A stretch of 40,392 bases of DNA from a bacterium (GTDB lineage: Bacteria; Planctomycetota; UBA1135; GCA-002686595), in the NCBI GenBank assembly GCA_030428395.1, contig JAUIDW010000014.1, positions 1 through 40,392 on the forward strand. The letters are read 5' to 3'. Positions within the stretch are counted from its first letter, which is position 1, and each line of letters opens with the position of its first letter. The notes under the pieces were generated by a model. It was given only the letters and a program-made list of their open reading frames with translations. It made no database searches and was not told the DNA's origin. A program made the translations under genes and the position numbers. This document shows, one piece after another, positions 13,040 through 17,148 of this stretch.

Positions 13040-14410
13040 ATGACGCCCGAGCCCACTCCCGCCAGCGCGCGCATCTTCGGCACCGACGGCGTGCGCGGTC
13101 GCGCGGGCGAGGGCTGGCTGTCCGACGGCGCGGTGTCCGCCCTGGGCCGCGCGGTCGCCGCCGTGCTGGCGTCCCGCCCCGGCGACGCGCCCCGCCGCGC
13201 GCTGCTGGGGCACGACGGCCGCGAGTCCGGGCCGCGGCTCGAGCGCGCGCTGTCGCGCGGGCTCGCCGCCGCCGGCTTCGAGGCGCTGTCGGTCGGCCTC
13301 ATCACCACGCCCGGGCTCGCCTGGCTGACGCGCGACACCGACTGCGCGCTGGGCGCGATGATCAGCGCGTCGCACAACCCCGCCGAGGACAACGGCATCA
13401 AGGTGTTCGGCGGCGAGGGCGAGAAGCTCTCCGACGAGCTCGAGCTGGCCATCGAGGCGGAGCTCACCGTCCGCGGCGACCCCGTGACCGAGGGGCCCGG
13501 GCCGCGCCGCGTCGAGGACCTCGAGGAGCGCTACGTCGCGCACCTCTCGCGGGACGCCGTGCCGGGGCTGCGGCTCGACGGCCTGCGCGTGGTCGTCGAC
13601 TGCGCCAACGGCGGCGGGAGCCGCGTCGCGCCGCGCGTCCTCGAGGGGCTCGGCGCGGAGGTCCGCGCGATCGCCGCGGCGCCGGACGGCCACAACATCA
13701 ACCACGCGTGCGGCTCGACGCACCCCGCCGCGCTCCAGCGCGCGGTGCTCGAGCACGGCGCGGACGTGGGCATCGCGCTCGACGGGGACGGCGACCGCTG
13801 CATCCTCGTCGACGAGGGGGGCGCGCTCGTCGACGGCGACGGCATCCTCACCGTCTGCGGCCGCCACGCGGCGCGCGCGGGCGAGCTGCCGGGCGCGCGC
13901 CTGGTGGCCACGGTGATGAGCAACTGCGGCCTGGCCCGCGCCCTCCGCGAGGTCGGCGTCGAGGTGGACACCGTCGGCGTCGGCGACCGCCGCGTCGTCG
14001 AGCGCCTCCGCGAGCAGCACCTGGGCCTGGGGGGCGAGCAGTCCGGCCACGTCGTGTTCGGCGCCGACAACGCGTTCATCGGCGACGGGACGTACACCGC
14101 CCTGCGCGTGCTGCGCGTGCTGCGGGAGACCGGCGAGACGCTCTCGGCCCTGACGGCGCCGTTCCAGCGCATGCCGCAGGTGCTGATCAACGTCCGCGTC
14201 GCGAGCCAGCCGTCGCTCACCGACGTCGAGGGCCTCTCCCACGAGGTGCGCCAGGTCGAGGACGCGCTGGGGACCTACGGCCGCGTCCTGCTGCGCTACT
14301 CGGGCACGGAGCCGCTCCTGCGGGTCATGGTCGAGGGGCCCGACGAGTCCACGATCGACGGCTTCGCGCGGCGCCTGGCGGCGCACGTCGAGGCGCGCAT
14401 CGGAGCGTAG
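13040..14410 (+). CDS. glmM: Phosphoglucosamine mutase
   Basis: Interconverts glucosamine-6-phosphate and glucosamine-1-phosphate for UDP-GlcNAc, needed for peptidoglycan and LPS. 456 residues, typical length. It opens with FGTDGVRG, has the phosphoserine loop ISASHNPAEDNGIKVFG (Ser near residue 110), the metal loop ALDGDGDRC (about residue 248), the sugar-binding GGEQSGHVVF and the C-terminal phosphate-binding RYSGTEPLLRVMVEG. The ATG at 13040 is 47 bases after folP and carries its own promoter-like boxes. ISASHNP plus GEQSGH identifies GlmM rather than a general phosphomannomutase. Confidence 0.97.
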   Translation: MTPEPTPASARIFGTDGVRGRAGEGWLSDGAVSALGRAVAAVLASRPGDAPRRALLGHDGRESGPRLERALSRGLAAAGFEALSVGLITTPGLAWLTRDTDCALGAMISASHNPAEDNGIKVFGGEGEKLSDELELAIEAELTVRGDPVTEGPGPRRVEDLEERYVAHLSRDAVPGLRLDGLRVVVDCANGGGSRVAPRVLEGLGAEVRAIAAAPDGHNINHACGSTHPAALQRAVLEHGADVGIALDGDGDRCILVDEGGALVDGDGILTVCGRHAARAGELPGARLVATVMSNCGLARALREVGVEVDTVGVGDRRVVERLREQHLGLGGEQSGHVVFGADNAFIGDGTYTALRVLRVLRETGETLSALTAPFQRMPQVLINVRVASQPSLTDVEGLSHEVRQVEDALGTYGRVLLRYSGTEPLLRVMVEGPDESTIDGFARRLAAHVEARIGA

Positions 14411-14421
14411 GGGCGGACGCT

Positions 14422-15102
14422 GTGCCGCCCGGGGACCCGCTCGTCGTCGCGCTGGAGACGTCCTCGCGCCGGCCCTCCGTGGCGCTCGCGCGCGGTCCGC
14501 GACGGGTGGCGCGCGAGCTCGACGGCGAGCGCTCGCACGCCAGCGACCTGCTCCCCGCCGTGGAGGAGCTGCTGGACTCGCTCGGCGCCGCGCCGCGCGA
14601 GCTCGACCACGTGTACGTCGGGACGGGCCCCGGCAGCTACACCGGCCTGCGCGTCGGCGTGGCCACCGCCCTCGGGCTGCACCGCGGCGCCGGCGCGAGC
14701 CTGGTCGGCGTGCCCTCGCTCGCGGTGCTCGCGTTCGCCGAGCTGCGGCCGGGCGAGCGCGCCGCGTGCGTGCTGGACGCGCGCCAGGGCGCGTACTACG
14801 CCGCGGTGTACGCGCGCACCGCGCGGGGCGTCGACGCGCAGCGCGAGCCGGAGGCCGTGCCGCGCGACCGCCTCGACGAGCACCTGCCGCGCGGGCTGCC
14901 GCTCCTCGTCGACGAGGCCTCGGCCCGCAGCTTCGCCTGGGACGACGAGCGCCGCGCCGCGCTGGTCGTCGGCCGCGTCCCGACGGCCGCGGCGCTGCTC
15001 GAGCTCGGCGACGCGCAGCTCGCGGCGCGCGGACCGACTCCGCCGGAGCAGCTCGAGCCGCTCTACCTGCGTCCGTTCGCCGCGCGTCGACGCGCGCGGT
15101 AG
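14422..15102 (+). CDS. tsaB: tRNA N6-threonylcarbamoyladenosine biosynthesis protein TsaB
   Basis: Non-catalytic ASKHA-fold partner of TsaD in making t6A37 of ANN-decoding tRNAs. 226 residues, as usual for the family. Motifs: VVALETSSRRPSVALA at the N-terminus, the HASDLLPAVEELL helix, VGTGPGSYTGLRVGVATALGL, and VLDARQGAYYAAVY. GTG start at 14422, 11 bases after the glmM stop. It is the last gene of the ftsH-folP-glmM-tsaB run; a strong hairpin follows at 15196. Confidence 0.95.
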   Translation: MPPGDPLVVALETSSRRPSVALARGPRRVARELDGERSHASDLLPAVEELLDSLGAAPRELDHVYVGTGPGSYTGLRVGVATALGLHRGAGASLVGVPSLAVLAFAELRPGERAACVLDARQGAYYAAVYARTARGVDAQREPEAVPRDRLDEHLPRGLPLLVDEASARSFAWDDERRAALVVGRVPTAAALLELGDAQLAARGPTPPEQLEPLYLRPFAARRRAR

Positions 15103-15195
15103 CCGCCACGCGTCGGCGCGCGCGGTGGCGCTCCTCGCGGAGGACGCACGCGCGCGACGCGCCCCGCGCGGACCGGAACGCGCCCGGAACGAAGA

Positions 15196-15226
15196 GCGCC
15201 CCGACCCTGGAAGGGGGTCGAGGCGC
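15196..15226. terminator. Bidirectional hairpin between convergent tsaB and histone genes
   Basis: GCGCCCCGACCC (15196-15207) pairs with GGGTCGAGGCGC (15215-15226), 11 of 12 positions, loop of 7. It lies in the 191-bp gap between two convergent stops. There is no T-run, but position and stability make it a likely shared terminator. Confidence 0.55.
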
Positions 15227-15293
15227 TGGAGTCGGTTCGCTTCGCGCGGCGCCGCCCTCGCGGTCGCCGCGCGGAACCCGCGGGAACGAGGTC

Positions 15294-15539
15294 CTACAGG
15301 TCCTGCGGGCGCAGGGTGCGGCGGCCGTTCATCTCGGCGCGCTGCTCGGCGCGGGAGATCATGTCGCGCACGGCGCCGTCGAGAGCCGCGTAGAAGTCGC
15401 CGGAGACGTTCAGGCTGGACGCACCCTTGGTGCGGCTCTTGCTGATGATCATGTCGGCGGGGGCCTTCTTGCGACGGGCCGTGGTCTTCCGCGCCGGCTT
15501 CTTCCGGGCGACCTTCTTGCGCGCTTTCTTCTTAGCCAT
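15294..15539 (-). CDS. Bacterial histone-fold protein with Lys/Arg-rich N-terminal tail
   Basis: 81 residues. The first 27 are a basic tail (AKKKARKKVARKKPARKTT...). From residue 28 it fits the histone fold: short helix 1 (ADMIISKSRTKG), loop, NVSGDFYAALDGAVRDMISRAEQRAEMNGR as the long helix 2, then the loop RRTLRPQDL, the conserved R-T contact of loop 2 followed by the Asp-Leu that begins helix 3. The protein ends there, so helix 3 is missing or reduced, as in the truncated alpha3-type prokaryotic histones. It probably binds DNA as a dimer; the tail should add charge contacts. ATG 15539 is preceded by an AC dinucleotide run and AAAGG about 12 bases upstream. It is convergent with tsaB and divergent from alr. 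It is not HU or a classic H1/Hc1 protein because of the fold motif. Confidence 0.88.
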   Translation of the reverse strand: MAKKKARKKVARKKPARKTTARRKKAPADMIISKSRTKGASSLNVSGDFYAALDGAVRDMISRAEQRAEMNGRRTLRPQDL

Positions 15540-15907
15540 GTGTGTGTGTTGCCTTTGTCCGGGACCCTTCGTGTCCACCTCCGGCGCGTCTGCGTCGGGC
15601 GTGTATGCGTCGGGTTCGGTGGTTCTTGCTCCGGTCCTCCGGGGTGTCGACCTCGCGAGCGAGGGGTCGGGCGCAGGGTGCCTGCCGCGAACGCAGCGCG
15701 TCCGCACGACGCCGGAGAGCCGAGAGCTCTGATGTCAAAAGGGACGAAAGAGCCGTAACGCGGAGGCGAGGATGCCCCCGCCGCAGGAGCGTGTCAACGC
15801 TCCGATCCAGCCGAATCCGGCCTTTTCCGGCCGATTCGAGCCCGGTCTCGGGCAGCTGCGCGAACCGCTCCACGCGCTCGAACGGCCGCGCGCCGAGCGC
15901 GCGACGC
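15540..15907. other. Intergenic region between divergent histone and alr genes
   Basis: About 370 bp with codon use unlike coding DNA here. On the minus strand it holds the histone leader, ending in (AC)6 just before the ATG, and a perfect TTGACA at 15738-15733 for which no -10 box is evident 15-19 bases downstream. On the plus strand an ATG at 15772 is in frame with alr, but the 57 codons from it to 15943 contain many A/T third positions, so this part is treated as non-coding. Confidence 0.6.
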
Positions 15908-15936
15908 TTGATCGGCGACGCCGGGACGGACACGAT
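15908..15936 (+). promoter_or_regulatory. Candidate promoter for alr, leaderless spacing
   Basis: TTGATC (15908-15913), 17-base spacer, CACGAT (15931-15936); the GTG chosen as alr start is 6 bases downstream at 15943. Matches are 4/6 and 3/6. Confidence 0.35.
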
Positions 15937-15942
15937 CCCGGC

Positions 15943-17148
15943 GTGGAGCAGCATCGCGTCTGGGCCGAGGTCGACCTCGGGGCGCTGGCCCGCAACCTGC
16001 GCGCGGTGCGCGCCCGCGCCGGCACGGGCCGGGCGGTGATGCTGGTGGTGAAGGCGGACGCCTACGGACACGGCGCGGTGGCCGTGGCCCACGCGGCGGT
16101 GCGCGGGGGCGTCTCCGCGCTGGGAGTGGGCAACTCGGCCGAGGCACTCGAGCTGCGCCAGGCGGGCGTCTGCGCGCCCATCCTCGTGCTGGGCACGATC
16201 GTGGAGGACGAGGCCGCCCCCTGCGTCCGGCACGAGGTCGAGATCGGCCTCCACTCCCGCGACCGGGTCCGCCGGCTCGAGTCCCTGTGCCGCCGGCTGG
16301 GCACGACCGCCCGGGTGCACCTGAACGTCGACACCGGCTGGGGCCAGCTCGGGGTGCCGCCGGCGCGCGGCCTGGAGCTGCTCGAGCACGTGCACCGCTC
16401 GAACCACCTGGACCTCGCCGGCGTGATGACCCACTTCAGCTCGTCCGCGGGCGCCGCCGACCCGCTGACGCGCACGCAGATCGCGCGGCTCGAGGCGTTC
16501 CTGGAGGAGGCCCGCCGGCGCGACCTGCCCGCGGGGCCCGTCCACGCCGCGAACTCGGCCTTCCTGTTCTCTGGCGGCTCCCCGCTCTACGACATGGTCC
16601 GCCCGGGGATCGCGGCCTACGGCATCCTCCCCGGAGGGCTCGCCGCCGGCGAGCTCGAGCCCGTCCTGTCCGTGCACACCCAGGTCGTGTTCGTGAAGGA
16701 CCTGCCGCGCGGCGCCAGCCTGGGCTACGACGCGACGTGGCGGGCGACGCGGCCGACGCGCATCGCGACGCTGCCGGTGGGCTACAAGGACGGCCTGCCG
16801 TTCCGGCTGTCGAACGCGGGCGAGGTCCTGGTGCGCGGCCGGCGCGCGCCGGTCCTGGGGCGGGTGTCGATGGACTACGTCAGCGTCGACGTCGGGCACA
16901 TCCCGGACGTGCGCGTGGGCGACCGCGCCACGCTCGTCGGGGCGCAGGGCGAGGACGCCGTCACCGTGCAGGACGTGGCCGGGGCCGCGGGCACGATCCC
17001 CTACGAGATCACCTGCGCGCTCGGCCGCCAGGTGCCGCGGTTCTTCCGCGAGAGCGGCGAGCCCGCGGACTCCCCGCGGACGCCCGCGCCCGGCGCCCGC
17101 GCGGCACCCGCGCCGGCGCCCGCGGTTCCGCCACGGGCCGGCGCCTGA
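15943..17148 (+). CDS. alr: Alanine racemase
   Basis: PLP enzyme making D-alanine for peptidoglycan. 401 residues from GTG 15943. It opens with the standard WAEVDLGALARNLRAVR; the PLP-lysine motif is VVKADAYGHGA (Lys about residue 37); VHLNVDTGWGQLG, MTHFSSSAG and HAANSAF follow; the second catalytic residue is Tyr in GRVSMDYVSVDV (about residue 312). After the C-terminal domain comes a Pro/Ala-rich tail of about 30 residues. Starting at ATG 15772 would add 57 residues with atypical codon use, so GTG 15943, in the family-typical place, is preferred. Confidence 0.95.
   Translation: MEQHRVWAEVDLGALARNLRAVRARAGTGRAVMLVVKADAYGHGAVAVAHAAVRGGVSALGVGNSAEALELRQAGVCAPILVLGTIVEDEAAPCVRHEVEIGLHSRDRVRRLESLCRRLGTTARVHLNVDTGWGQLGVPPARGLELLEHVHRSNHLDLAGVMTHFSSSAGAADPLTRTQIARLEAFLEEARRRDLPAGPVHAANSAFLFSGGSPLYDMVRPGIAAYGILPGGLAAGELEPVLSVHTQVVFVKDLPRGASLGYDATWRATRPTRIATLPVGYKDGLPFRLSNAGEVLVRGRRAPVLGRVSMDYVSVDVGHIPDVRVGDRATLVGAQGEDAVTVQDVAGAAGTIPYEITCALGRQVPRFFRESGEPADSPRTPAPGARAAPAPAPAVPPRAGA

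Follow-up and report, generated by a model that had tools for sequence, protein, structure and literature searches.

The question raised by this locus is what to make of a small, basic bacterial protein that resembles a histone fold and seems to stop before helix 3. A sequence-only reading of the window (the whole 40,392-nucleotide stretch analyzed here, from a planctomycetal genome assembled as 5.8 Mb in 554 contigs) had proposed a bacterial histone at 15294-15539, without naming a strand, in which a Lys/Arg-rich tail of 27 residues precedes a fold that runs up to RRTLRPQDL. We found this to be correct in both sequence and model and the gene to lie on the minus strand, with its ATG at 15539 and its stop codon ending at 15294 (Table 1). 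The product, MAKKKARKKVARKKPARKTTARRKKAPADMIISKSRTKGASSLNVSGDFYAALDGAVRDMISRAEQRAEMNGRRTLRPQDL, has 81 residues (27 of tail and 54 of histone fold, with RRTLRPQDL as the last stretch) and a pI of 11.6.

The same frame occurs in 45 of 60 related genomes at 48-73% identity (E < 1e-14); the tally of 47/61 also counts the genome of the window itself and a spurious match (G012, E 0.0015), which was dropped as a homolog and whose locus is empty. When the homologs are aligned, the fold is nearly constant in length and its end position is fixed, whereas the tail varies in length and keeps its make-up. All homologs read, bar one, end at the same Asp-Leu or Asp-Ile. Hence, conservation in relatives and the shared end point identify a real gene, and conservation rules out a chance frame. 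The overlapping plus-strand frame at 14766-15758 is unsupported, the conserved frame being that of the minus strand.

The window protein has no significant family match in Pfam (none at E 10) or NCBIfam, and single homologs match unrelated models weakly. No second histone was found in the window's genome with PF00808 or with the protein itself (next match E 2.8), and a promoter scan at the locus found nothing. A second histone paralog, of 160 aa, is present in 8_bin.21 (L101, 2409-2888); its long C-terminal extension past the usual end makes it the sole homolog read that does not stop there.

Table 1. Features of the histone locus, in positions of the window.
Feature	Position	Strand	Remarks
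81-aa alpha3 (face-to-face) histone gene with N-terminal basic tail	15294..15539	minus	Frame, conservation, profile, model
N-terminal tail, residues 1-27	15459..15539	minus	15 K/R, no acidic residue; length and sequence variable among relatives
Helix alpha1, residues 34-40	15420..15440	minus	Invariant K34, K38; R36 nearly invariant; model and alignment
Helix alpha2, residues 47-70	15330..15401	minus	R67, predicted tetramer-interface residue, near helix end; model and alignment
Face-to-face signature R67-N71-R73-T75-D80 (RxxxNxRxTxxxxD), loop L2, one-turn alpha3 (78-80), C-terminal L81	15297..15341	minus	
Phosphoglucosamine-mutase-like gene (glmM), in conserved block	13046..14410	plus	
tsaB-like gene (Pfam TsaD-family match), convergent neighbor	14413..15102	plus	
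13-bp GC-rich hairpin between convergent tsaB and histone genes	15195..15227	none	Region z -3.55
Alanine racemase gene (alr), divergent neighbor	15772..17148	plus	

Structure prediction, which had been suggested as a check, gave a histone fold for residues 26-81 (57 sequences, mean pLDDT 92). In this model, alpha2 spans 24 residues, and helix 3, which had been called absent, is still there as one turn (residues 78-80) before the protein ends at residue 81. With VIA-align, the model matches HLp of Leptospira perolatii (PDB 9QT0; Z 7.7, rmsd 1.1 over 53 residues), HTkC of Thermococcus kodakarensis (Z 7.5, rmsd 1.0 over 52 residues) and HBb of Bdellovibrio bacteriovorus (Z 7.3-7.6, rmsd 1.3-1.5), and nucleosomal histones score well below these alpha3 structures (Z 5.5 or less). 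Foldseek returned the same order of kinds, with E-values that never passed 0.001 for so small a fold; we therefore base the fold assignment on ranking, rmsd and sequence in combination.

The sequence profile, run against the PDB, placed HTkC first (1.5e-8) and HLp second (6.5e-6); aligned identity is about 33% for HTkC and about 33-34% for HLp. HU, which had been raised as a possible best match, is thereby rejected, and PF00216 (Bac_DNA_binding), the HU/IHF model, has no match in the window protein at E 10. The closest solved relatives, HTkC (9F2C) and HLp (9QT0), are both face-to-face (FtF) tetramers; this kind of alpha3 histone was described recently and occurs in Leptospira and in archaea.

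The defining trait of the alpha3 superfamily is a helix 3 shortened from about 10 residues to 3-4, and alpha2 in this superfamily is shorter by 4-5 residues than that of nucleosomal histones (Schwab et al. 2024, PMC11390915); in HLp, alpha3 is a single turn made of the last four residues (PMC12701072). The truncated helix 3 of the window protein, at residues 78-80 only and shared in its end point by the homologs, is thus no peculiarity. Within the superfamily, FtF histones are tetramers in which R48 and N52 are conserved where the two dimers meet, as are R54, T56 and D61 around loop L2 (HMM positions; PMC11390915). Their counterparts here, R67, N71, R73, T75 and D80, are all present in matching spacing and invariant in 57 homologs, and the basic alpha1 residues of FtF histones are likewise conserved (Table 1). 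We place the protein with the FtF histones because of these five residues in the same spacing, the first two of which bacterial dimer histones lack. Hence, as judged from its sequence, the protein is a new Planctomycetota member of the known FtF alpha3 family, and its apparent anomaly is the family's definition.

HLp (PDB 9QT0, 9QT1, 9QT2) is like the window protein in being bacterial and FtF with a one-turn helix 3. Its R49, N53, R55 and D62 (PMC12701072) stand at the same distances from the C-terminus as R67, N71, R73 and D80, and the threonine is shared too; in contrast, its N-terminal extension is short, whereas the tail here is longer and rich in Lys and Arg. HTkC, the best PDB sequence match, shares the fold; it is archaeal and FtF and has no long tail. 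By profile alignment, the alpha1/L1 stretch of the window protein is shorter than that of HLp by about 3 residues and than that of HTkC by about five; this is one modest departure from known FtF histones, and it could alter DNA contacts. From the Planctomycetota FtF histones of Schwab et al. 2024 (PMC11390915), which belong to the same phylum and family and were compared by description rather than as individual sequences, we found no difference of kind; earlier work had already described FtF histones with basic tails and FtF histones hosted by Planctomycetota. Planctomycetota histones have also been noted as persistent (Hocher et al. 2023, PMC10627809), and the invariant S33-K34 recalls the serine-lysine motif of bacterial singlet histones described in the same study.

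Very probably, then, the protein is an FtF alpha3 histone that forms a tetramer wrapping about 60 bp and is nucleoid-associated, with a tail that adds DNA contact. By analogy with HLp and HTkC, tetramer formation and wrapping are most likely, and the signature residues also predict the tetramer; tetramers of HLp are stable, with about 60 bp of DNA wrapped around them and nuclease protection of 35-72 bp (PMC12701072). Two chains would pair via crossed alpha2 helices, and R67, N71, R73 and C-terminal residues would join two such dimers into a closed ring. The positive rim would wrap about 60 bp of DNA with no sequence preference, and K34, K38 and R36 on alpha1 are likely DNA contacts, on the roles described in PMC11390915. 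The disordered basic tail probably makes extra non-specific contact with DNA or joins neighboring DNA; its role here, like the protein's abundance in the cell, is presumed.

The sequence-only reading had likened the tail to those of eukaryotic histones. We found that 15 of its 27 residues are Lys or Arg (56%) and none is Asp or Glu, so its basic character stands; the likeness is only general, this being a K/A/R/T-rich stretch of variable length. The full-length model has low confidence over residues 1-30 and is confident only in the fold. Positively charged tails are common in bacterial FtF histones (PMC11390915). It is conceivable, and we consider it unlikely, that the tail does the main work in the manner of H1 or HC1 and that the fold is a mere dimerizing handle. 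Such a role would agree with the high Lys/Arg content, with a composition that is kept among homologs while the sequence drifts, and with one relative that weakly matches the model of the chlamydial H1-like HC2 (E 4e-4). However, some homologs are almost tail-less (L094, and L061 and L110 as called) with the fold unchanged, and the putative DNA-contact residues K34, K38 and T75 are invariant.

That the protein is instead an HBb-type histone, bending or coating DNA as a dimer, is quite improbable. HBb (PDB 8FVX, 8CMP) shares the alpha3 fold, the truncated helix 3 and the RD clamp, the fold scores for HBb are nearly as high as those for HLp, and bacterial dimers occur in Planctomycetota too (PMC11390915). 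Nevertheless, HBb belongs to a group without the FtF interface residues R48 and N52 (PMC11390915), whose equivalents R67 and N71 are invariant in the 57 sequences; identity to HBb is about 21%, versus about 33% to HLp and HTkC, and HBb has no long tail, unlike the window protein.

As an FtF histone, the protein would act as a nucleoid-associated protein beside HU. We found two HU/IHF-type genes (PF00216) in the window's genome, on other contigs than the histone gene, whereas the host of HLp is reported to lack HU (PMC12701072); at least one such gene is present in 60 of the 61 genomes of the relatives set. Hence, chromatin proteins other than the histone are present as well. The least probable alternative, a histone-fold protein with a non-chromatin function as a regulator or as partner of another protein, would fit with these two HU/IHF proteins and with relatives that have no histone, since the histone is then not strictly needed, yet the protein is strongly basic, its putative DNA-contact and tetramer residues are invariant, and HLp, its nearest characterized bacterial relative, wraps DNA (PMC12701072). 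Separately, one ordinary HU-type protein of the window's genome (L153) is extended at its C-terminus by a stretch that is rich in proline and ends in NSPF; the extension recurs in L156, L157 and L158 and is common to genomes G000, G006, G030 and G034.

In a phylum-wide sample of 294 genomes, 104 have profile matches to the histone. Among the close relatives that bear names, most are metagenome bins of Planctomycetota, and the strains Pla163, Pla86 and Poly30 are represented by complete chromosomes. Three close homologs (L094, L100, L103) lie on contigs labeled Eisenbacteria, Myxococcota and Methylomirabilota, possibly through transfer or wrong binning.

Near the histone gene, Pfam assigns ftsH, a folP-like pterin-binding gene, the glmM-like gene, the tsaB-like gene and alr; these neighbors are housekeeping genes, and we claim no functional link between them and the histone. 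The order and orientation of tsaB, the histone gene (on the opposite strand) and alr recur in most family loci on long enough contigs, which argues for vertical inheritance of a gene that has been kept. The hairpin in the convergent intergenic region folds better than shuffled sequence and has no T run; it is a possible two-way terminator, although the terminator scan did not pick it up.

The histone is patchily absent: 55 of the 81 genomes of the window's family have a match. At the tsaB-alr junction, we checked 14 histone-less relatives (L128-L141) and found that in 12 of them (11 of the family and one outside it) the tsaB and alr matches are at most 91 bases apart with no histone between, compared with about 670 bases in the window. 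Hence, the absence is real in those 12 and is no assembly gap, and the histone, missing from some close relatives, is dispensable in the family.

Seven of these genomes have a divergent HU-family protein (PF00216; HU-variant loci L142-L148) with its own K/A-rich N-terminal tail; among the HU-variant copies that were read, those of G007, G024 and G031 are tail-less as called. A profile of this HU variant matched 19 of the 26 family genomes without a histone match and 3 of the other 55, which have one (Fisher p 5e-10, kinship disregarded); the profile was built from seven histone-less genomes, so the count is biased, although the pattern had already emerged from a general search with PF00216. 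Seven genomes have neither protein, and several of these are incomplete or have congeners bearing the histone or the HU variant.

The RpoB tree requires six changes of histone state when one 67%-complete genome is omitted; in it, the window's genome shares a clade with one further carrier and with four genomes that have the HU variant and no histone. The alr tree is poorly resolved. In a pairs test on the RpoB tree, an average of 4.5 pairs ran in the opposite direction and none ran in the same direction (p 0.06-0.125; two genomes were counted as HU-bearing on the strength of a congener). The pattern is therefore suggestive of replacement and is not significant once kinship is considered. Tentatively, and with more doubt than confidence, we propose that the histone and an unrelated divergent HU variant replace each other, the histone being lost at tsaB-alr and the HU variant lying elsewhere in the genome.

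Bacterial histones have been studied in only a few cases, and planctomycete FtF histones are numerous; unlike in Leptospira, they live beside HU. Since orthologs are present in the complete chromosomes of Pla163, Pla86 and Poly30 and not only in metagenome bins, the histone may be testable in culture. Its patchy absence, with an HU variant in most genomes that do not have it, makes it possible to ask which need a bacterial histone serves. If the replacement is true, the family would be a natural experiment in which one chromatin protein is swapped for another that is unrelated to it.
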